Source: Panopea generosa (taxonomy: Eukaryota > Mollusca > Bivalvia > Adapedonta > Hiatellidae). Taken from it: 64,000 nucleotides of DNA. Made by a program: the position numbers and the translations under genes. Position 1 is the first letter of the stretch, and the number at the start of each line of letters is the position of its first letter. Positions 5,716 to 59,605 of this stretch are shown piece after piece. The notes beneath the pieces are model-generated. The model did not search any database. It was not told the DNA's origin and saw nothing but the letters and a program-made list of their open reading frames with translations. Location: positions 54,316,464 to 54,380,463 of the forward strand of contig CM055895.1 of NCBI GenBank assembly GCA_029582155.1, given 5' to 3'.

Positions 5716-5904
5716 TTTTATAGATTCCTTATAAATCAAATAATTTCTTAAACCGACTGCAGTTTTTGGGTAACTTTAAGTTGATAAAAAGCCTCCTTTA
5801 GCAGCTGATAATGATATGCATACGGAAACTTTAAATCAAATATAATTGAATGGAAATAAATGTCATTTCTTTTTTAGTCCTGCTTTGGTAAAAAAAAAGG
5901 CCGT

Positions 5905-7894
5905 GTGGCCAACTCAGTTTTGACTACCACAACACCAATAAAGACTGTTGCATCCAAACATAGAATTCATGGTTTCAACATCTCGTGGAAACAGACAAGA
6001 CCGTGGTTGTATTCCGAAAAAGGAGAGAATGAAGAAGGCGTTCTAACAGAAGTCGTGTATTGTAGTTTATGTCAGAAACATAATGTGAAATCAAGAAATG
6101 GGAGTGAAATTTGGACTAAACAAGGTTGTAGATCACTTAGACTTGACAAGGTCACCCTATCTGAAACATCAGAGATCCACCGGAGAGCATTGAAGCTCTG
6201 GACATGTGAACAGCAAAGAATTGAGACAACATTCGCAGATTCTATATCAGAGAAAGAATTCAAAGCAGTAGAATGTGTCCTGAAATCTCTACACTTTTTG
6301 ATCATGCACAACATTCCTCACACTACAGTATTCAAAGACTTCATCCAGTTTCCTGTTGAAGATTGACAGAGTCCTGCTCTACAGTATCTAAGTCTAGGTG
6401 GAAATGCCAACTATAACAGTCACAGAACTATTGATGAGTTTATTACAATTATGGTCGAAGACATAGAGGAGACAATGATGACCAAGGTAAATGCAGTCCA
6501 GCTTTTTCAATCATGACAAATGAAGCCACAGATGTTAGTAATAGAAAACACCTCGCTTACGTGGTTAAGTACGTTGACCAGTAAGATGGATCCATCAACA
6601 TAGACTTTGTAAAAGACGTTGAAATCGACAACGGAAGAGTTGAGACCATCTTCAATGAGACAACGAAGGTGATAGAGACCAACTTGACCCTAGACAGATT
6701 TGCTGCCTATGGAAGTGATTGTTGCAGTGTCATGATTGGTAAGAAATATGGTGTTTCAACACGACTGAAGGAAGTAAAACCAGATCTATTGACGATTCAC
6801 TGTCAGAACCACAGATTAGCTCTAGCAGCAAAAGACAGTTTTGAAAACATTCCAGTATTCAAACAAACAGATGAAACATTAAACGGCCTTTTCAAGTACT
6901 TCAAAGGTTCAGCTGTCAGAACAAAGTCATTGATGATGAAAAAGCAGAAACTTCTGGAAGACAGTGAAGTAAGAAAAATAAAGAAGGTTGCCCATACCAG
7001 ATGGCTGTCCCACCTTGATGCAGTGACTTCACTAAGAGATTGCTACTCTGCCATCTTAATGGATCAAGAGAATGCCATTGAAACTGGAAATGACGAAGTG
7101 AGAATTGGCTCTGGTCCCTCTGCCTATGGACTCGTCAAGAAGTTGACGTCATACAAGATGATACATCTAACTCATTTTCTGTATGATGCGCTGAAACATG
7201 TAAAAAAACCTCGCCCTAACATTCGAGAGAAATGACATTGACTTTTCAATTGTACAGCCTAGACTTCAGAGTACATTGAATGCCCTCCAAAAGCTGAGAG
7301 ATAGTCCTGGCCTTAGCACCAGATCAGAACATTACTCAAGCCCAGAAATCTGTAGCTTCCCTCAAGACATTAGAAGATGAATTCTTGGACAATTTGATAG
7401 CCAACATAACTAAACGAATAGAGAACACTGATATAATCAATTCCACGGGAGCATTGAAGATAGATGAAGACTTCAGTTCCTTCACAGGCAATGATGAAGT
7501 TGAGACATTGAGTGAACACTACTCCATGGACACTGACACTGTCCTAGAAGAATGGGACAACTTCAAAAACATGGTTTCTGAAATAGATGTATCGATAACA
7601 AATGGATCATCAGCTCTACTGAGAGTCATTCTTAGACTAAAGAAGACAGCAAGTGACTTCTGTCCACATATAGAGAAACTTTGTTCTGTCGCACCTGTCC
7701 TTCCTGTCAGTACAGCAGAAGTAGAACGTGTGTTCTCTGATGTAAACAGAACAGTGACAGAGTCGAGAAACAGACTTAAAGTTGAAAGCACCCACATGTT
7801 GCTGATGCTGCACAGAAATTCAAATTACCTGAGTATTTCTGGGGCTGTAAGAAGATGGGCCAACAAGAAACAAAGACGAATTATGAGTAAATAA
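5905..7894 (+). pseudogene. hAT-superfamily transposase (ZNF862/KIAA1586-like), broken
   Basis: Intronless relic of a DNA-cutting transposase. In order: a TTF/BED-like zinc-finger start with YCSLCQKH (about 6058-6083); after breaks, a catalytic core with MTNEATDVSN, GSDCCSVMIG, the conserved HCQNHRLALAA and TRWLSHLDAV; then the hAT C-terminal dimerisation region with PVSTAEVERVFSDVNRTVTE and RNRLK (about 7700-7780). Lesions: in-frame stop at 6364, a frameshift near 6490-6510, a stop near 6582, and frameshifts near 7222 and 7310. No ATG opens the N-terminal part. Similar host-domesticated genes exist, but the stops make this a dead transposon copy. Confidence 0.88.
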
Positions 7895-36068: not shown

Positions 36069-36450
36069 CTTGTGAGAACGTGTTGAATTTACAGAAGAAA
36101 CTCCCAAGCACCCAATTATTATTGTTTAGATTATTCACCAGATGCACCCAAGTACAAAACACCGTTACCAAAATGTCCGCCACCGCCAAATTCACAATGT
36201 AAAAATTAGTCGTTGTCCGCATGCGTTTATGGCGCAATACCACCACAACAATCAACGAATTTCCCACCAAGGAAAAGAATATTATCATTGCGTACAAATA
36301 CGATTTAAGAATGATTTCGTAAAGTGGTATCTTGTTTATGTCCCCGGGGTATTCCAACTGTAAATAATCCACCGTGCCGTTTCCAAACACTTCGTAATTC
36401 TCGGGTGCATAGTCGTAATTACTGTGATTCTCTTCCGAGTAGTCGTTCAT
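36069..36450 (-). CDS. Class A (rhodopsin-like) neuropeptide-type GPCR, first coding exon only
   Basis: Seven-transmembrane receptor at the cell surface, partial: 127 codons plus one base, ending CAAG|GTATGT (phase 1 intron). ATG at 36450 has an in-frame TAA upstream. Seen: an acidic N-tail with N-glycosylation sites N8-H-S and N24-G-T, TM1 around residues 50-72 with GN (N1.50 at 64), the loop KRMRTTTN, TM2 with NLAVAD (D2.50 at 92), then a W-x-x-G-x-F-x-C motif with the conserved TM3 cysteine at 120. MRT-x-TN-x-x-IVNLAVAD is typical of peptide receptors (orexin/allatotropin-, QRFP- or GPR83-like); the ligand cannot be told. Later exons (TM3 DRY onward) were not recognised downstream and may lie beyond the window. 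Past the donor the frame meets a stop and a SINE head, consistent with intron. Confidence 0.85.
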
Positions 36451-43412: not shown

Positions 43413-43638
43413 CTATTTATATTGGCAATTTTACCTAAAGGCGTTGAGGGTTCAAAACATTAACTACGCGTGTTTTTTTTTAAATAAATGCATTTTTGCA
43501 ATTATGTTTTTATATTAAATGTAAATTATCCAGAAAAAAAACTTGAATTATTGGTACATTTTAAGTCTGTAATTTCAAAATCATTTTAACCGAGCTTTAC
43601 TCTAAAGTGCATTTGTAGTCTGGATGTTTAAACAGTTT

Positions 43639-46600
43639 GTAAAGTCGAAATACAAGCATCATGGAGCATATATTGTACAGTGACTTTACTTTCAACATAG
43701 TGTAAAGTCGGAATACAAGCACCATGGAGCATATATTGTATAGTGACGTTACTTTAAGCATAGTTTAAAGTCGAAATACAAGCGCCATGGAGCATATATT
43801 ATACAGTGACTTTACTTTCAACATAGTGTAAAGTCGAAATACACGCACTATGGAGCATATAATGTACAGTGACTTAACATTGAACATAGTGTAAAGTCGG
43901 AATACAAGCACCACGGAGCATATATTGAACAGTGACGTTACTTTCAACATAGTGTAAAGTCAAAATACAGGCACCATGGAACATATATTATAAAGTGACT
44001 TTACATTCAACATAGTGTAAAGTCGGTATACAAACACCACGGAGCATATATTGAACAGTGACGTTACTTTCAACATAGTGTAAAGTCGAAATACAGGCAC
44101 CATGGAGCATATATTATAAAGTGACTTTACATTCAACATAGTGTAAAGTCGGAATACAAGCACCACGGAGCATATATTGAACAGTGACGTTACTTTCAAC
44201 ATAGTGTTATGTCGAAATACAGGCACCATGGAGCATATATTATAAAGTGACTTTACTTTCAACATAGTGTAAAGTCGGAATACAAGCACCACGGAGCATA
44301 TATTGAACAGTGACGTTACTTTCAACATAGTGTAAAGTCGAAATACAAGCACCATGGAGCATATATTATAAAGTGACTTTACTTTCAACATAGTGTAAAG
44401 TCGGAATACAAGCACCACGGAGCATATATTGAACAGTGACGTTACTTTCAACATAGTGTAAAGTCGAAATACAAGCACCATGGAGCATATATTATACAGT
44501 GACTTTACTTTCAACATAGTGTAAAGTCGAAATACAAGCATCATGGCGCATATATTTTACAGTGACGTTACTTTCAACATAGTGTAAAGTCGAAATACAA
44601 GCACCATGGAGCATATATTGTACAGTGACTTTACTTTCAACATAGTGTCAAGTCGAAATACAAGCATCATGGCGCATATATTTTACAGTGACGTTACTTT
44701 CAACATAGTGTAAAGTCGAAATACAAGCATCATGGAGCATATATTTTACAGTGACGTTACTTTCAACATAGTGTAAAGTCGAAATACAAGCACAATGGAG
44801 CATATATTGTACAGTGACTTTACTTTCAACATAGTGTAAAGTCGAAATACAAGCATCATGGCGCATATATTTTACAGTGACGTTACTTTCAACATAGTGT
44901 AAAGTCGAAATACAAGCACCACGGAGCATATATTATACAGTGACTTTACTTTCAACATAGTGTAAAGTCGAAATACAAGCATCATGGCGCATATATTTTA
45001 CAGTGACGTTACTTTCAACATAGTGTAAAGTCGAAATACAAGCACAATGGAGCATATATTGTACAGTGACTTTACTTTCAACATAGTGTAAAGTCGAAAT
45101 ACAAGCACCACGGAGCATATATTGTACAGTGACGTTACTTTCAACATAGTGTAAAGTCGAAATACAAGCACCATGGATCATATATTGTACAGTGACTTTA
45201 CTTTCAACATAGTGTAAAGTCGAAATACAGGCACCATGGAGCATATATTGTACAGTGACGTTACTTTCATCATAGTGTAAAGTCGAAATACAGGCACCAT
45301 AGAGCATATATTGTACAGTGACTTTACTTTCAACATAGTGTAAAGTCGAAATACATGCACCATGGAGCATATATTGTACAGTGACTTTACTTTCAACTTA
45401 GTGTAAAGTCGAAATACACGCACTATGGAGCATATATTGTACAGTGACTTTACTTTCAACATAGTGTAAAGTCGAAATACAAGCACCATGGAGCATATAT
45501 TGTACAGTGATGTTACTGTCAACATAGTGTAAAGTCGAAATACACGCACCATGGAGCATAGTTTATACAGTGATGTTACTTTCAACATAGTGTAAAGTCG
45601 AAATACACACACCATGGAGCATATATTGTACAGTAATGTTACTGTCAACATAGTGTAAAGTCGAAATACACGCACCATGGAGCATATATTGTACAGTGAC
45701 TTTACTTCCAACATAGTGTAAAGCCGGAATACAAGCACCACGGAGCATATATTGTACAGTGACATTACTTTCAACATAGTGTAAAGTCGAAATACAAGCA
45801 CCATGGAGCATATATTATACAGTGACGTTACTTTCAACATAGTGTAAAGTCGAAAAACAAGCATCATGGAGCATATATTTTTCAGTGACGTTACTTTCAA
45901 CATAGTGTAAAGTCAAAATACAAGCACAATGGAGCATCTATTGTACAGCGACTTTACTTTCAACATAGTGTAAAGTCGAAATACAAACACCACGGAACAT
46001 AGTTTGAACAGTGACGTTACTTTCAACATAGTGTAAAGTCGAAATACAAGCACAATGGAGCATATATTGTACAGTGACTTTACTTTCAGCATAGTGTTAA
46101 GTCGAAATACAAGCACCATGGAGCATATATTGTACAGTGACGTTACTTTCATCATAGTGTAAAGTCGAAATACAAGCACCATGGAGCATATATTATACAG
46201 TGACTTTACTTTCAACATAGTGTAAAGTCGAAAAACACGCACTATGGAGCATATATTGTACAGTGACTTTACTTCCAACATAGTGTAAAGTCAAAATACA
46301 AACACCATGGAGCATATATTATACAGTGATGTTACTTTCAACATAGTGTAAAGTCAAAATACAAGCACCATGGAGCATATGGAGCATATATTGTACAGTG
46401 ACTTTACTTTCAACATAGTGTAAAGTCGGAATACAAGCACCATGGAGCATATATTGTACAGTGACGTTACTTTCAACATAGTGTAAAGTCGGATTACAGG
46501 CACCATGGAACATATAATATACAGTGACGTTACTTTCAACATAGTGTAAAACCGAAATACAAGCACCATGGAGCATATATTGTACAGTGACGTTACTTTC

Positions 46601-46728
46601 AACATAGTGTAAAGTCGGATTACAAGCACCATGGAGCATATATTATACAGTGACGTTACTTTCAACATAGTGTCAAGTCGAAATACAAGCACTATGGAGC
46701 ATATATTGTACAGTGACGTTACTTTCTG
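43639..46728 (+). repeat. 63-bp satellite, about 49 units
   Basis: Unit starts GTAAAGTCGAAATACAAGCA, then CCATGGAGCATATATTGTAC and AGTGACTTTACTTTCAACAT. Spacing is 63 bp with one small internal duplication near 46380. Each unit can form a hairpin GACTTTAC-12 nt-GTAAAGTC. Because 63 is divisible by three, long minus-strand frames with a 21-residue repeat appear; these are not taken as genes. Confidence 0.95.
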
Positions 46729-49915: not shown

Positions 49916-49969
49916 TCACGCTACACGCTTCATGGTCCTTCTGCATGTTACACCATTCGTGGTCATTGT
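49916..49969 (-). CDS. FABP exon 4 (terminal coding exon)
   Basis: Strong acceptor CCCTTTCAG precedes 17 codons and TGA at 49918-49916. The residues TMTTNGVTCRRTMKRVA match the last beta-strand of FABPs, normally ending C-T-R-x-Y. The arginine that contacts the ligand carboxylate is kept, but the following tyrosine position is methionine. Confidence 0.92.
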   Translation of the reverse strand, partial: TMTTNGVTCRRTMKRVA

Positions 49970-52900
49970 CTGAAAGGGAGGAATAAACATGTATCTTTAT
50001 GATAAAACGAGTTTGATGATATCATTTATATAAAAACATGAGAAGATAATGGGTACGGATAGTTTACGCTTTTCGCTTCTATTAGTACAATTGTTATAAA
50101 TAAAAAAAAAATTACAATAAGATGAAATAAGAAACGCTTTTCCATCAAACTAAATATTCAAATGACACTGCAACAATATCCAACATAGAACAATGCATTT
50201 GGCATTACTACAGGCGCTCCAAATATCCAGAAAGAGCGCGTATAAATAATAAAAACTCTTCATCAAATTCACATGGTATTACATAACCTCTGATCTGATT
50301 CTAATGTAACTTATGTATACATTTTCCAGGTTTTGTCGTCGTAAATTCAGTAAACACAACATAACATTGATATGTCCCTGACGCATACAGGTGATAAAGA
50401 GACATATGATAAAGCTGCATATAGTAATGATACCATTGCATTGCAAGACATCTATAAGCATGCCCCTTTAATGAGACAGTCCCGACATAAGCAAACATCT
50501 TGCCTGTCTCAGACTACCGTAAATATACTATATATACACCACTGTAACATTATCCCTTCAAATAATAACTCTACCTTCTCCCTTGGGCATCTCAGTACGA
50601 CTGTTATCTGTAGTGAATATACCTCGCCTTAGCCTTGCGTTGTCGTTTTGATTTGTGTATTACAAGATAACATTCTATCGTGATTTCCTCTTTAGGAATA
50701 TAGATAATTTTGATCAACTACACAGAAGTGAAAGAAACTGTAAGTTGATCAAAATGATATATATTCCTAAAGAGGAAAAATGTCCCAGTCCCCAAAATGG
50801 GGTTGCCATGATAAGATGATATATTAGGGTCCCCTGTGGCCGAGTGGTCCACTTATGTCTACTGACCACTTACATCTTATCCCTTATGTCATGGGCTTGA
50901 GCCAAGCTCGATTTTAAAAATTTTGCCAGTTACTTGCAGAAGGACAGTGGTTCTACGAACTTTCATTTTCAGGTCTTCCTTCAGCAATAAAACTGGATAT
51001 GTCATATATAACATGTCATGTGTTCAAAATGGTTTTAATCCCGATTTCAGAAAAAGATGCCTTTTCTCCTAGTAAACCATTATACATTCATGTTGTTCTG
51101 AATCGTTTCATCACAGAAGTATGACGGTAGTCAGTGTTGATCCGCCCAACGTTAAGGTTAACTGTTGGTCAAAAGTAAAAATCGATTGAAATTAATTACA
51201 TATTTTTAGATTCGTAAGAAAGAGTTAAGTTTGAAACCTGATAAAAACTGCTCAAAGTTTGCTAAGCACCAAAAATACCCAAGTGCATGTTTTACGTTAC
51301 GTATATTGTTGTGAAAATTGTTTGTACTTTGTGGGATGTTGTTCCATTCTTGGACCAGCATGGCACCAAGCTCCTGGACACTTCTTGGCTGGACTTGACG
51401 GGCTGAAATTCCAAGTTGCAACTCATTCCACACATGCTCGATGGGATTGAGGTCAGGGAATCGGGCTGGCCAGTCCAGACGCGCAATCCCCTTCCTCTGA
51501 ATGTACTCCCGGACAGCATGGGCAGCATGAGGACGGGCATTATCGTCCATAAGAATGAACCCATCATCCACTGCACCAGCATGCAATCTTACCTGGGTAT
51601 CCAGAATCTCATCTCTATACCGCTGGGCATTCAGTGTACCCCGGTCAAGAACAATGAGGTATGTACGTCCATCCCAGCTGTTCCTGCCCCAGACTATCAC
51701 GGAGCCGTCATGCTCAGCAATGTTGGCTGCGTAGAATCTCTCCCCTGGCCATTTTCCATACCCTAGCACGCATATCCAATACCTGGACTCATTTGTAATA
51801 AGGACAGGTGGCCAGTCCTCTCTGGTCAATGTCGTGTGAAATATTTGGTGCTTAGCAAACTTTGAGTAGTATATAAATATGGCACTCTTCACGTATAGAA
51901 ACTTTCATTGAAATCGGATGACATTTTCTGCACTTAAACTATCTAAATGTAAGTGGTGCGTTTTCAAAGTCACTGAGTGTATATACAATGTACTTGTGTA
52001 TTACTGATAACCGAAGTTCAAGTTTTATGCAAATGCACGTGTTTGACATACCGTACGGGACTGAATACATTTAGTTTATAATAGGACGGTTCTAAGACAG
52101 GTGCTGTATGTGTATAAACCTCTTCAAAAATGACAACTTAATTATAGGTCTTTGGCTTTCCCGTCCCACGTGGCTAAACGTGAAATTACGTTTCATTGAA
52201 ATTCCAAGAGCGACAGAAATTACTGTGCAAAATCCTGCTAAATTATTAAACAAAAGAAAATATCAACATGTATGAATTTGGATCTACTGATTAACAGATA
52301 TAAATCTAGATTGTTTTTTACTGTTTTTAATTTGGTAGATGGTTTCGTTATTGTCATCTACTGTTGCTCTCACCTGAATCATGTTGTCGCCTTCACGTTT
52401 ACGTTCAATGATCTGCAGCAACCCAGTGTCAGTACGTCTACATTCTAAAAGCATAGCCCCATTCTCCCACCGTGCTACCGCCTGTTACATCAACAAAACA
52501 AAAAGAACTTAACTATTAATCTAGATAAAATGCATTTGCTTTTTGACACGGCACGTGCAGTCTCGTATACAGTATATAGTAATCTAATTATGGTTAACGT
52601 TGTCGTGCATATAATGATGTAATTAAATTAATACAAGCCATATATTCGAGAACATGGTCTGAAAATAATCTTATAACGAGATCTTGATCTGGTAATGTCA
52701 GGGTGACACTGTGCATGACAATTGAACATACATTTAATTAGACACTCAGCCATGTCCTTAATATACGAAGTTGTGATATGTAAGTACAGTTCTGTACGTA
52801 TTATAAGGTCGAAAATCTGAAATCATAATCAATTTTAATATGTCTGAAAATTTTGAAAGACTATTATGTCAATGCATGGGAAGTACGTCACGTGCACCTG

Positions 52901-55900
52901 CTTAATACAGTGCTGGAACGTTATTAAGTGATTTTTCGTTTCGATTTTGGATACATGTGCAGATTTTTATAGATCCCACCGACCTTCTGGGTATTGGAGG
53001 AATCTATTTCACCGATATGTAGCTCAGTGTGACCTATAAAAGTCCAGATTAATTCAAAACAGTTGAACGTCATGTCCGGTAACGTTTACATTTAGAATGA
53101 AGCTCAACTGTTTTAAGGTAATCTGGAATTGTATAGGTCACAATGATCTATATATCGGTGAAATAGAAATCCTCTAGTACCCAGAAGGTTGTTTGGATCT
53201 ATATAATCTGCACATGTACCAAAAATCAAAACGAAAAATCACTTAACCAACGTCTAATGAAAATCCTAACTATAACGGAGAAAACACGTATAATACTATT
53301 GCTCGCCTGGCACCATGTGTTATAATAGCTAAAATATCACGAAGCACCTAAATCAATGTCGCAATGGAGCAAAAAGTATGGATGAATGACAATCGGAGTA
53401 GGTACATAGCATATTGGTGAACTTAAATCCATGTCAGAACAAAACTAATTAATATCTCTAATACCCAGAAGGTCGATGCGAAAAATCTGCATATGTACCC
53501 AAAATCGGAACGAAAAATCATGTAATCAACCTTTGAATCAACGTTGCAACAAATTTAATGCATAACGGATCAAAATAGAATTATTTGATTTAATTTAAAC
53601 TTATTTATTTAACTTCGATTGTGAAACAAGTTCTTACTTTTACAAATCATGCTTAAACTCGTCCTTGGTAGATTTAGTACTAAGCATATTCGAAAAAAAA
53701 ATGTTTTGCTCTAGGACACCACACATGGCCGTGACGGAGGATCGAACCCACGACCCTCTGATTCTTGGTTCGATGCTCTACCAGTGGACCATGCGCTCCA
53801 CAATTCTTTGGTTTATATAATGAAATCTGTACTGTGATCGATCACATGATCGAATATTCGTAAAGATTATAAAATTTCACGATAGTGCCATCTCAAAATG
53901 CATACTCGTACAAATAATAAAATTGAATGAAGTTGGAATCTTCAGATCTTTAAGAAAATCGCATCGTTGGATACCCGCGCGTAATCCATTCCGATACTCT
54001 GCATTTATCACCCGCGGGATATTACACTAGCCTTGCGTTGTTTCTACCATTGAATTCAATATGCAACCATGTGATTGGTTCCTTCACGATTGTTATTCAA
54101 TCGCAACGATAGTTTCACGCAAACGCCGTTTTGATAGGACGTTGTTAAAGTCAGCTGTATTTTGTTCTGTTCTGTTCAAATAGCTAGCGTAAGTCATTTC
54201 CCACGGGTGTTGGATGGAGAGTATCGAAATTGACACCCATGGGTATCCAACGATGGAAAAAGCGACACTTATTAAAAGTCGAAATAGATCGTTTCCAACA
54301 CTGTTTTGTTGATCTAGAAACATTTTAACAATGAGTTGTTCTTACCTTACTGCATTTACCAGCTTTTATTTCAAACTCCTCGCCAAGCTTGAATTCAATC
54401 TTGAAGTGCTGTGTGCCCCTTTCCAATTTCAGATGAATAATGTCCTCCTCCACCCATATCGTTTGGTTGTTTGTGGTGGTATAAGATTTCCGTTCACATT
54501 TTTCAATTCCTGTCTAGAGATCTAGAACACTCAATGATTGCACATAATAGAAAACTATCTACACGTTTTATATCATATCATACCACAGTAAACTATCTAC
54601 ACTTTTATATCATATCATATTATAATAAAATGTCTACACGTTTATATCATACTATATCATAGTAGACTTTCTACCTATTTTATAGCATACCATAGCATAG
54701 TAAACTTTCTACACTTTTTATATCATATCATTTCATAGTAAACTATAAACACTTTTATATCATATCATATTATAGTAAAATATCAACACTTTTATATCAT
54801 ATATATTATATCATAGTAGACTATTTACACTTTTTATAGCATACCATAGCATAGTAAATTTTCTACACTTTTTATATCATAGCATTTCTTAGCAAATCAT
54901 AGCATAGCATATCTTAGCAAATCGTAGCATATCATAGCATAGCATAGCATTGCAAATTATCTACACTTTTTATATCATATCTACACATTGTATATCATAT
55001 CTCATCATATCACATCATATCACATCGTATCGTATCGTTTCGTATCGTATCGTATCGTATCGTATAGAATTGTATCGTATCGTATAGAAATGTATCGTAT
55101 CGAATCGTATCGTATAGTATAGTATCGTGTCTCATCGTGTCATATCATATTATATAATATCATATCATAGCGTTAAATGTATTGAGAGTTTGGTTAAAAC
55201 GCAGGGTAGGGTGTGTTTATCGGTCGTATTGGTCAGTATTATAACATAATATTGCGCCTTGCGTTGCAAATTTGAACAAAAGGCATAAAATGAAATAAAA
55301 TGTGTTATAACAGCTGTCTGCTGTATTCTTAGCGTTATTGGATACCGATGTTCGAGGCTTTATATTGGTTGTCAATAGGTTGTGGAATATGATTAATATA
55401 TGAAATATGAGAATATCTACAAAGAACAAAGGAAGACGCTCTTAAATGTGCTCCGAAAACAAAATAATGTACATTTGATTATTTATGTATCGTTTTTCCG
55501 CGATTTTAATGTGGTTTATCGCCATTTTCAACACCTTTCAGGCTCTATATATATATAACATATCCAGTTTTATTGGTGCAGAAGACCTCAGAATGAATCT
55601 GAATAGAATAACCGTCCTTTCAGTAAGCAACTGATAAACTTTCTGAAATTAATTTGTTTGACCTTATGTCGAGCGGGACTCAAACCTACAACCTCAGCAG
55701 TGAGAGGTAAGTGATCTTGAGACTCACATTTTGCATCGTACAGATGACCACACATCTGTTACAGTGTTACTATGACCGGTGCAAGAAGTGGAGGGTACAT
55801 GTTCAGCAAACCGCGTAAAAGCAGAAGAAAATTAATAATAAGGCATTTAGGAATAGTATATCCAAAATAAATAGATTTAAAGAATTTCGATTAAAGTCTT

Positions 55901-58139
55901 AAAAAACTATGTTATAACTGCGTGCCGCCTATCCTTGATTATGGGTCATCACTTTGGAGTCATAAAATTAACATATATAACACCATTTAAACAACAATAT
56001 CGCCTGTATGTAGCTTGTATTAGCATAAAAAGTGATTTGATTGCATTTATTGAAAACAAAACAAAACTGGTATACAGGCTGAATTGTTTCGGGTGATTAA
56101 AGTATGTATGGAAAGGTGAACTCATGTGTTAAAAGTTTTAATAGGCAATCAGAGGTAATCTTTTTATCATAGAAGACTTGTAATTATATTTGCAAAATAA
56201 TTCTTTTTTGAACTGATGATCGATGATATAGTACTAGTATTGTTGCCATGGTAATTTTAAGCCATATCACCAGAAGAAGAGTAATAAAATAGCTTACATA
56301 TTGTATATATGCACATACTGTAGTTTTTGTGGTTTTGAGGTAAATAGTTCTAAAAAAAAATTAATTGTTATTTTTAATTTTCGAAAACGCGGACGTCGAC
56401 TGAACAACAAAAAATGTTGAAATTGTAAAGGACTTTAATTACATTTACCTTTACATTGAATAATGGACATCTGGTAAGACTGTAACAAAATTGTGTGTCA
56501 GTTATTTGATCCTTTGTTGAAACAGTAGTGTGTCATTCATCGGTTGCATTTCACACAAAAAACCTTATACGGTATTTTTTCTGAAAATACAATCTTGAAT
56601 TCAAGTCGATGACCATGACTATGACATTATAGGATTTCGCTAAGTTTGGGGGTATTGAACGTCTTCAAGTTTTGTACACGTCTTTTGTTCATGTACAGCC
56701 GGTGTATACGGTGAACGCTTTAAATTACGCGATATACTAGAAGCATAAACTTATTAATACTAGCGACTAGGATTAGTATGCTTCTCTTGATAAAAACCAA
56801 CTTTTCCATGCATGTTCAAAAATGTGTGGTAAATTGTTTTATCCCAGAATGTCATGGCAGCGGTAACAGGCGATTAGCGGGGCATACTCCGATACTCTGC
56901 TGAGTAATATTTGAAACCAAAGCCTAAATATTAAAAAGACTAAAAAGTCGAGAGAAGCAATAGAAATGTAACAGGAGGGAGTTACAAATAGGAACATATA
57001 AGTTTCGGATTTAACTGTTCCGTGCGTATAGTAACATAGTTCACTGTGTCTTTTATGTAAAATATCGACCTAATATAGATGTGCAGTCTGGGTCGACATT
57101 TCCCGATGTAGATAAATATATTTAAGGAATGCGTTCTATCCCAATGAAGCATAACATTTGAAAAGTCACCAGAAGTCACCATTTCTACTTTTATTTCTAA
57201 GTAACGTGTAAAGTTCTCACGCTACGCCCCTGGGTAACAACAGTTATGTTTTAAGAATGTAAAAAGTAGTTTTGCATATGAGCAATATTTAGATGTTCTT
57301 CTAAACGGTTAAAGATTGTAAGTTACCAGAATAAGAGTATCTGCACATACTCTCAGAATTAAAACTGGCCGTTATTACATACAGGAAACCATGTTCAAAG
57401 AAACGAGAGATATCATTTTGTTGTATCTCAACTGAGGTGGAAGATAATAATCACTAACCACTTCATTTGCATCTTTCCTGCAACAGTGATTTAAGGAAGA
57501 GTATATAAAAATAAAAGACCTTCCATTTACAAGCTTTTTGAAATTTTTTTAATCAAATGAAAAATGTATTGTAGTCGTAGTTAAACGTTCTCTGAAATTA
57601 AGAAACAATATTTTAAATGTTTAATGTATTTACATTTTTATCGTAAACTAGCTCAGCTAAAGCTAATAAGTATATACAGTTGATAATGAAAGAAAGAATC
57701 ATCGTTTTAGATTAAAAAAATAAATGTGGTTTACCGCCATTTTCAACAAATTACAAGTTATATATGGCATATCCAGTTATATTGGTGGAGGAAGATCTCA
57801 GTTATATTGGTGGAGGAAGATCTCAGTTATATTGGTGGAGGAAGATCTCAGTTATATTGGTGGAGGAAGATCTCAGAACGAATCTGAGTAGAACCGCCGT
57901 CTTTCCTCAAGTCTGGCAAATTTTGTCATATAACGTTTTTGGAGCGGGCGGGACTAGAACGTATGGTAAGAGGTAAGTGATACTAAGACGGTCACGGAGG
58001 AGCCCTGTTTTAACCAATTGATAACTCTGGTCATCCTCTTGTCTTCAGGAACATGAGATTAGAAATATTTCTTGTATTGAATATACTCCTGTTAATATAA
58101 CACCATTAATGTTATCAATTTTTTTAAAAAAATTTTTAA

Positions 58140-58208
<69 letters not shown>

Positions 58209-59542
58209 GCCTGTCTGTCTGTTCATATTTATTCATTCATTAAGTCTCATCATTGTTAACACAATAATAATACAAACTTAATATTATCATTACAGCAAAT
58301 CAATCATGTCATTCTATGTATAGAACAACAAGAGACTAATTAACTAACATATTTTACGAACTATTTCTTTGCATGTAACAAAATAAAAATCTACCATTTA
58401 ACAAACTTTAAATGATTTATCACAAATTAGATTTTGCATTTAATTGTTACAAGTTTGCACATCCGTCGTACAGACGCCCGCACGTGCATTTAAGTGTTAC
58501 ATGATAGCACGTCCTTCGCTCAGACACCCGCCCGTGCATTTAATTTTTAAATGATTGCTCATCCTTTGTACAGACGCCCGCACGTGCGTTTAAGTGTTAC
58601 ATGATAGCACATCCTTCGCGCAGACGCCCGCACGTGCGTTGAACTGTTACATGATTACACATCATTCGTATAGACGTCTGCACGTGCATTTAATTGTTAC
58701 ATGATTGCACATCCTTCGTACAGACGCCCGCTATTACATTTAATTGTAACATTATTGCATATATTTCGTACATACGCCCGCAAGTTTATTTAACTGTTAC
58801 ATGCTTGCACATCTACCGTACAGACGCCCGCACGTGCAATTTATTGTTACATGATTGCACAGCCTTCGTACAGACGCCCACACGTATACTTAACTGTAAC
58901 ATGTTTGCACATCATCCGTACAGACCCTCGCACGTGTATTTAATTTAACACGATTGCATATCTTTCGTACAGACGCCCGCACGTACATTTAGTTGTTATA
59001 TGAATGCAAATCCTTCGTAGAGACGCCCGCACGTGTATTAAATTGTTATAGTATTGCACATCTTTCGTACAGACGCCCGCACGTGCATTAAATTGTTACA
59101 TGATAGCACATCCTTCGTACAAACGCCCGCACGTGTATTTAATTGTTACAATATTGTAAATCCTTCGTACAGACACCCGCACGTGCATTTACTTGTAACA
59201 TGATTACACACCTTTCATACAAGCGCACGCACGTGCATTTAACTAATACATGATTGCACATCCTTCTTACAAACGTCCGCATTTGTATTTAACTAATACG
59301 TGATTGCACATCCTTCGTTCAGACGCCCAGATGTGTATTTAATTGTTACAAGATTTCACATCCTTCGTACAGACGCCCGCATGTGTATTTAATTGTTACA
59401 AACTTGCACATCTTTCGTACAGACGCCCGGATGTGTATTTAATTGTTACAAACTTACCCAACTCAATAAGATAATTGTCCACGTTGTCGCTGCTCTCCAA
59501 TCCCCATGATCCTGCTAGCTCCCGTGCCACCTCCCCAGCCAT
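49916..59542 (-). CDS. Fatty-acid-binding protein (FABP/intracellular lipid-binding family), complete four-exon gene
   Basis: Small cytosolic beta-barrel carrier expected to bind fatty acids or other hydrophobic ligands. Exons 59542-59458 (85 nt), 54509-54346 (164), 52481-52374 (108) and 49969-49916 (54) sum to 411 nt: 136 residues plus TGA, a normal family length. All introns are GT..AG, in phases 1, 0, 0, the classic four-exon FABP layout. Seen: N-terminal family signature ELAGSWGLESSDNVDNYLIE (residues 8-27), the conserved FKLGEEFE in exon 2, a W/G-rich start to exon 3, and the C-terminal GVTCRRTMKRVA that replaces the usual VTCTRVY. The ATG at 59542 is preceded directly by an in-frame TAA, which fixes the start. 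The signature has V where F/Y is usual, and the ligand-binding R-x-Y reads R-x-M. Introns of 4.9, 1.9 and 2.4 kb are filled with repeats. No stop or frameshift is seen, so the gene looks functional. The exact paralogue cannot be told. Confidence 0.94.
50685..50777. repeat. 35-bp stem / 23-nt loop hairpin in FABP intron 3
   Basis: Arms 50685-50719 (TTCCTCTTTAGGAATATAGA...) and 50743-50777 pair with about two mismatches. The size is similar to a pre-miRNA or small foldback repeat. Whether it is transcribed as anything but intron is unknown. Confidence 0.75.
50827..51035 (+). mobile_element. SINE-B copy in FABP intron 3
   Basis: Head CCTGTGGCCGAGTGGTCC, core GCCAGTTACTTGCAGAAGGA, 3' part AATAAAACTGGATATGTC. 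Oriented opposite to the FABP gene. Confidence 0.83.
51242..51873 (-). mobile_element. Internally deleted Tc1 element in FABP intron 3
   Basis: Matching terminal inverted repeats (left CTCAAAGTTTGCTAAGCACC at 51251, right its complement ending about 51868) next to TA. The minus-strand coding part begins almost directly after the right repeat with LTREDWPPVLITNESRYW and continues through MDDNARPHAAH and FPDLNPIEHVW (E 34 residues after D). The N-terminal DNA-binding half is gone and the first catalytic Asp is Asn. The frame from the right repeat through the core is uninterrupted. Confidence 0.87.
52374..52481 (-). CDS. FABP exon 3
   Basis: Acceptor GTAACAG precedes a 36-codon exon that ends CAG|GTGAGA; phase 0 on both sides. 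It begins AVARWENG, matching the family's start of exon 3 (usually a T-W-[ED]-[GN]-G type motif), and carries IIERKRE, whose first R is a plausible equivalent of the fatty-acid-contacting Arg106. The family usually has 34 codons here, so this exon is two codons longer. Confidence 0.92.
52916..53262. mobile_element. Long foldback (hairpin) element in FABP intron 2
   Basis: Two arms of roughly 140-150 bp (52916-53065 and 53110-53262) are imperfect reverse complements, with matched blocks such as GTGATTTTTCGTTT / complement, ACCTTCTGGGTA / complement and CAAAACAGTTGA / complement, around a short loop. A further single-arm copy is at 53456-53545. Confidence 0.8.
53456..53545. repeat. Single arm of the foldback family
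   Basis: ATACCCAGAAGGTCGATG..., ATCTGCATATGTACCCAAAA and GAACGAAAAATCATGTAATC match the right arm of the 52.9-kb foldback element. Confidence 0.65.
53592..53806 (-). mobile_element. SINE-D in FABP intron 2
   Basis: tRNA-like head on the minus strand near 53804-53725 (A box TGGTAGAGC, B box GGTTCGATCC) and a tail at 53592-53630 whose plus strand reads TTATTTAACTTCGATTGTGA. Related pieces at 47.1 and 47.7 kb show it is repetitive. Confidence 0.65.
54346..54509 (-). CDS. FABP exon 2
   Basis: Acceptor ACAG lies just above 54509 and the donor is AAG|GTAAGA at 54345. The two leading bases complete a Gly codon with exon 1, and the exon ends in phase 0. An overlapping donor 5 bp earlier (GTAAGG) would break the phase. 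It encodes the middle strands, with an IWVEEDIIHLKLE stretch and the hallmark FKLGEEFE. Spacing from the exon 1 glycine to GEEF is within one residue of typical FABPs. Confidence 0.93.
54560..55165 (+). repeat. AT-rich degenerate array with CGTAT pentamers (FABP intron 1)
   Basis: 54560-54880 has roughly 50-60-bp units with CTACAC-TTTTATATCATATC and CATAGTAAACT. 54890-55165 grades into ATAGC, ATCAC and then CGTAT pentamers. Confidence 0.8.
55510..55745 (-). mobile_element. SINE-B copy in FABP intron 1
   Basis: Same family in FABP orientation: complement of ACATATCCAGTTTTATTGGT near 55559, then the core region and a tRNA-like head with the B box (complement of GCGGGACTCAAACC) near 55673-55690. 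Confidence 0.78.
57724..58007 (-). mobile_element. SINE-B copy with an internal 25-bp expansion
   Basis: Has the SINE-B 3' part, core and head (complement of GTCACGGAGGAGCCCTG at the far end). A 25-bp segment starting AGTTATATTGGTGGAGGAAG is tandemly repeated four times (57775-57874) inside it, where other copies have one. Confidence 0.82.
57775..57874 (+). repeat. 25-bp x 4 tandem repeat within SINE-B
   Basis: Four identical copies of a 25-bp unit (AGTTATATTGGTGGAGGAAG plus ATCTC). Confidence 0.93.
58141..58222 (+). repeat. GTCT tetranucleotide microsatellite
   Basis: About 20 copies of GTCT with one C variant, in FABP intron 1. Confidence 0.95.
58443..59457 (+). repeat. 50-bp minisatellite, 20 units, abutting the FABP exon 1 donor
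   Basis: Units of exactly 50 bp with ACATCCTTCGTACAGACGCC then CGCACGTGCATTTAATTGTT. About half of the units keep CACGTG, often as palindromic GCACGTGC. The last unit runs into the FABP 5' splice site (GTTACAAACTTACCC). Confidence 0.93.
59458..59542 (-). CDS. FABP exon 1 (start codon to first intron)
   Basis: Encodes the first 28 codons plus one base. ATG is at 59542-59540 with G at +4 and an in-frame TAA immediately upstream. The exon ends TTG-G before the donor GTAAGT at 59457-59452, giving a phase 1 intron as in other FABP genes. The residues include the G-x-W and D-N-x-D-N-Y core of the family signature that forms beta-strand A and the helix-turn-helix lid start. Confidence 0.93.
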
Positions 59543-59590: not shown

Positions 59591-59605
59591 GCTATTTAAA
59601 AAATC
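59591..59605 (-). promoter_or_regulatory. Possible TATA-like A/T element upstream of FABP
   Basis: Minus-strand GATTTTTTAAATAGC lies about 50-63 bases before the FABP ATG, a plausible distance for a core promoter with a short 5' UTR. The window is AT-rich, so such strings arise by chance. A further upstream untranslated exon is not excluded. Confidence 0.2.

Follow-up and report, generated by a model that had tools for sequence, protein, structure and literature searches.

The window, a stretch of 64,000 nucleotides of the Panopea generosa genome, very probably carries on its minus strand an intact gene for a small cytosolic lipid chaperone of the fatty acid-binding protein family (FABP; iLBP), which is single-copy as far as searched and whose transcription, fold and ligand binding are predicted. 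The gene structure, the open frame, the membership in the family by sequence and the sister genes of the same layout are direct results of computation. The protein is a divergent but ordinary member of the iLBP family and is otherwise unremarkable.

A preliminary description, made from the letters of the window, had proposed four minus-strand exons with GT/AG borders and phases 1-0-0, a product of 136 residues and a start fixed by a stop codon just upstream, and these proposals hold. The scripted join of 59542-59458, 54509-54346, 52481-52374 and 49969-49916 (minus strand) gives a protein of 136 residues (MAGEVARELAGSW...RRTMKRVA*) without internal stop, and all three junctions were recovered in the same phases by the splice-weighted search described below. 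The coding part of exon 1 (59458..59542; 85 bp, 28 codons plus one base) runs from the start codon to a phase-1 donor and is covered by the FABP profile from residue 9 on. It is followed by intron 1 (54510..59457, 4948 bp, phase 1), exon 2 (54346..54509, 164 bp), intron 2 (52482..54345, 1864 bp, phase 0), exon 3 (52374..52481, 108 bp), intron 3 (49970..52373, 2404 bp, phase 0) and exon 4 (49916..49969; 54 bp, 17 codons plus the stop TGA), each intron having GT/AG ends. In the 21 nt that precede the ATG there are four TAA codons in frame, so that the frame cannot extend upstream within exon 1. When sites on both strands were ranked by a splice-site score with general site frequencies, which may not be those of this genome, the donors took the 36th, 16th and 6th places among 7752 GT sites and the acceptors the 308th, 213th and 10th among 6065 AG sites. 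The TATA-like TTTAAATA at 59593..59600 (minus strand), 58 bp before the ATG, is a possible core promoter, and further TATA-like words are present farther upstream. The first AATAAA or ATTAAA downstream of the stop codon is 817 bp away. Judged from the DNA, the gene is predicted to be transcribed and spliced as modelled.

The preliminary description had picked its pieces by their looks, and therefore the tests against chance were run independently of that choice. A profile of six FABPs, none of them from the window, was scored against every stop-to-stop segment of 15 or more residues on either strand, 3009 in total, and the four exons took ranks 1 to 4; the joined protein scores 66.9 bits against this profile, built without it. 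The whole window was also searched for a spliced match to the profile, without supplying the exons, by a custom program that allows GT/AG introns in all phases and uses its own gap and intron costs and general splice-site frequencies. With GT/AG ends as the only demand on a splice site, this search reached 63.5 bits on the minus strand, as against 20.1 on the plus strand. Among its controls, the highest score of the 60 column-permuted profiles was 31.3 bits and that of 40 dinucleotide-shuffled windows 27.6, and the single reversed profile gave 25.1. Junctions 59458/54509 and 52374/49969 came out exactly, but the middle one was placed at 54330/52474 in phase 1, where the splice scores are weak (-4.35 and -1.84 bits, as against 10.35 and 6.58 for 54346/52481). 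When splice sites were weighted, the search recovered all three junctions exactly, the middle one at 54346/52481 in phase 0, with a minus-strand score of 74.0 bits as against 20.1 for the plus strand; its controls, of two kinds only, reached at most 27.0 bits over 60 permuted profiles and 22.5 bits for one reversed profile. Both searches begin at residue 9 (59518), and thus the ATG and the first eight codons are placed solely by the open frame and the upstream stops. Unrelated open segments might have been picked merely for resembling pieces of a FABP, and the weak matches of the single pieces in the PDB (E 0.015-0.05) would suit such a coincidence. The profile ranking and both spliced searches refute it, leaving it a negligible probability: all 101 controls of the first search (60 permuted, 40 shuffled, 1 reversed) and likewise the 61 splice-weighted controls fall below half of the real score, the exons are the top four segments, and the sister genes have the same exon layout.

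Searched with phmmer against the PDB, the joined protein matched FABPs over residues 9-134, with adipocyte FABP the best at 1.8e-14; this match, the profile score and the sister-gene layout bear out the family that had been named for it. The preliminary description had added that each piece matches its expected block of the family. In piecewise searches with exon 1, exon 2 and exons 3 and 4 together (exon 4 being too short alone), the best PDB chains are indeed FABPs or retinoid-binding proteins in the right block, but the matches are weak (0.015, 0.05 and 0.02, respectively) and some do not fit: unrelated chains make up 3 of the 53 matches of exon 1, 2 of the 28 matches of exon 2 fall on another block, and 1 of the 44 matches of exons 3 and 4 is an unrelated designed protein. 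A match to lipocalin/FABP profiles, which had been suggested as a check and whose absence was to refute the gene, was obtained with our own FABP profile but not with the curated models, and thus this refuting outcome came about by half. Pfam gave no family for the joined protein even at E 10, including PF00061 and PF14651, and the NCBIfam scan gave no match; as positive control, the adipocyte lipid-binding protein PDB 1g74 matches PF00061 at 3e-28. A Pfam match is the outcome of a detection model and not a defining trait of the iLBP family, and we do not hold the missing match against membership because one of the six sister-gene models also fails and oyster CgiLBP1 genes were reported to be without the Pfam lipocalin domain (PMC5399370). 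Pfam places lipocalins and FABPs together under PF00061, and the failure of the window protein there would leave some room for a secreted lipocalin instead of an intracellular FABP. Such an identity is extremely improbable: the best PDB matches belong to the FABP family, the N-terminus MAGEVARELAGSW, read directly by eye, is without a hydrophobic signal stretch, and phases 1-0-0 agree with the FABP exon lengths given in PMC7193176.

With 136 residues in a single domain, the FABP of the window fits the iLBP size of about 130 residues. Its four exons, with three introns at the family positions in phases 1-0-0, make up the commonest iLBP layout, from which some members depart by having fewer exons or more. 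Mammalian genes generally have four exons, and among invertebrates this number is the most frequent (52 of the 111 structures in Table 2); four exons with three introns are found in 7 of 8 FABP structures of the limpet Lottia (PMC3796463). In the oyster, 14 iLBP genes with the canonical layout of four exons and three introns and two pseudogenes are described, the proteins being 131-143 residues long (PMC5399370). The window gene shares the four-exon layout with the oyster CgiLBPs and the Lottia FABPs, as compared by published description; its length lies within the oyster range and its lack of a Pfam lipocalin match is like that of CgiLBP1 (PMC5399370 and PMC3796463). In vertebrates, exon 2 has 173 bp with few exceptions, and exon 3 has 102 bp in most genes and 108 bp in FABP2 (PMC7193176); the window exons 2 and 3 leave the same remainders on division by three, namely 2 and 0.

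Among the known proteins, FABP4 and then myelin P2 (iLBP subfamily IV) are the best PDB matches over nearly the whole protein, and they share with it both carboxylate arginines and a similar first-helix stretch, SDNVDNYLIELG. On the other hand, the identity is only 33% to FABP4 and 29% to P2, their Tyr128 is Met in the window protein, exon 2 with 164 bp is three codons shorter than the 173 bp given in PMC7193176, and the window protein is short of one residue after Arg35-Lys36 and of two near residue 75. Intestinal FABP2 (subfamily III) resembles it in the exon 3 of 108 bp (PMC7193176) and in the longer hairpin (RRTDTG in the window protein, KRVDNG in FABP2), and the two are loosely grouped in the tree, unstarred; but FABP2 has Phe at 128, and the identity to the rat sequence, as entered by hand, is 24%. 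The identity to squid ReP1-NCXSQ is 30%.

The genome (1.47 Gb, 39 contigs) was searched for sister genes. With the window FABP as query, the matches at E 0.001 were confined to exons 1, 2 and 3 of the gene itself (5 candidates scored), and by this test it is single-copy. Squid ReP1-NCXSQ as query gave, up to E 10, 11 matches to exons at 9 loci, the best with 64% identity, and the window gene was not among the 11. This 64% is the identity of one sister gene over exon 2, and ReP1-NCXSQ is also the best PDB match of that gene (3.4e-43). The size of the genome and its spliced genes point to an animal chromosome, and the closeness to the squid protein suggests a mollusc or a near relative. The Pfam lipocalin model, which covers true lipocalins too, gave 9 matches in the genome, 8 of them above the cut-off and mostly at further loci, and did not match the window gene. 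Six of the 9 loci were modelled in 30-kb stretches, by models without controls of their own, and five of these have four exons in phases 1-0-0, with an exon 2 of 173, 173, 167, 188 and 167 bp. The sixth, at C7:74525130-74526320, was modelled with three exons and its C-terminus is not settled. The other three loci, modelled within 3 kb, are incomplete (exons 1 and 2 in L011; exons 2 and 3 and a doubtful end in L012; exon 2 in L014). Five of the six sister models match PF00061 and/or PF14651 and one matches no Pfam family. Two sister genes on different contigs, G000:C11:60001084-60005884 and G000:C2:37863014-37868073, pair in the tree (99/99) and are perhaps later duplicates; L011 (C2:36.89 Mb) resembles this pair in exons 1 and 2. 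Apart from them, three matches to the lipocalin family stand close together at G000:C7:47891258-47906347 (about 15 kb). Each spans profile positions 79 to 143-145 within a single open frame, and they may be a small gene cluster in which the last intron is missing.

With regard to the ligand site, Arg110 and Arg130 of the window protein are the counterparts of vertebrate Arg106 and Arg126, and they occur in 11 and 10, respectively, of 11 aligned sequences, an alignment that left out the C7 sister with the unsettled C-terminus. Myelin P2 holds the carboxylate of its ligand with Arg106, Arg126 and Tyr128 (PMC2858655). The third contact (Tyr128, or Phe in FABP2) is Met132 in the window protein, where the 10 other sequences of the alignment and, by eye, three distant database proteins have Tyr or Phe; this contact varies within the iLBP family and is not counted as defining. 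The protein would fold as a ten-stranded barrel with a two-helix lid, where a fatty acid would be held by salt bridges to Arg110 and Arg130 and ferried between membranes or to enzymes. If the protein is a fatty acid carrier, its head group would most likely rest against Arg110, as it does against the corresponding residue in intestinal FABP2, because the position of Tyr128 of myelin P2 is taken by Met132. The paper on the oyster family (PMC5399370) describes a ligand that lies in a linear pose, its head group on the strand 8 arginine, as in FABP2.

The divergence of the window FABP is evident from database searches and from the tree. Used alone against a protein collection including nr and UniRef, a search that misses distant relatives, it gave 11 candidates, none at E 0.001. 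A three-sequence profile found 3 proteins with 25-27% identity, and the 11-sequence profile found 835 proteins at E 0.001, the best 120 of which are headed by an insect and a shrimp protein, followed among the named ones mostly by vertebrate intestinal FABPs. Identities to the window FABP among the matches listed (120 of 835) are 22-36%, the 36% extending over half its length, and no close relative was found among the matches listed in either profile search. In the tree of 13 sequences, the window FABP has a branch of 1.49 changes per column, as against a median of 0.37, and is at most 33% identical to the 12 others. The supported groups all exclude it, and we claim no orthology because its branch is long and it falls in no supported group. 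A recently silenced FABP duplicate, with exons still read through but expression or constraint lost, would account for the long branch and for Met at a conserved aromatic site, and it would suit a gene known from DNA alone. We regard it as very unlikely, since at no more than 33% identity a sequence long free of constraint would be expected to show a broken frame or damaged splice sites, whereas here the frame is unbroken and the six borders are all present with good scores; only a late silencing would fit. A fast-evolved, lineage-restricted iLBP branch, with the aromatic member of the carboxylate triad lost (Tyr/Phe to Met) and a ligand other than a classical long-chain fatty acid, is conceivable though rather doubtful, and we prefer the divergent but ordinary iLBP gene.

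The FABP gene had been called the only complete host gene in the 64 kb. No feature examined contradicts this, but the window also contains a first exon, with good borders, of a second host gene. At 36450-36069 (minus strand) lies the first coding exon of a peptide-type rhodopsin GPCR, with its ATG at 36450 and a strong phase-1 donor, AAG/GTATGT, after 36069; it matches Pfam 7tm_1 at 2.3e-17, and its best PDB matches are the substance-P, CCK, kisspeptin and NPY receptors. When the minus strand below 36.6 kb was searched by motif, no convincing further GPCR exons came up. Repeats occupy parts of the FABP introns. Intron 1 contains a 50-bp minisatellite at 58435-59450 and, stopping 37 bp short of exon 2, a 38-bp array at 54547-54896. 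Intron 3 contains a DDE transposon remnant (51242..51875, minus strand) with 35-nt inverted ends (51242-51276 and 51841-51875, 89% complementary), which is probably Tc1/mariner-like and whose frame matches positions 52-137 only of the 146 of Pfam DDE_3. In intron 2, a tRNA-like stretch at 53700-53830 (minus strand), seen by eye, bears GGTTCGATCC, which we take to be B-box-like, and is perhaps a SINE; ARAGORN gave no tRNA hit in the window, including this stretch, and the Rfam scan of the window gave none either. Elsewhere, a hAT-like element at 5878-7894 (plus strand) has three open pieces, the first with a C17orf113-type zinc finger, the middle one without Pfam match and the third with the hAT dimerisation region, and a 63-bp minisatellite at 43638-46726 (about 49 copies), whose unit length is divisible by 3, is accompanied by long open frames of repetitive sequence.

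Finally, a gene of this kind, whose divergent FABP product escapes Pfam and whose 9.6 kb include introns with minisatellites and a transposon remnant, can be lost by automatic annotation pipelines, and its description has value mainly in this respect. The altered binding site, if confirmed, would make a modest case for a ligand shift. The gene adds one more member to the animal iLBP family, whose large size and diversity in molluscs were known before.
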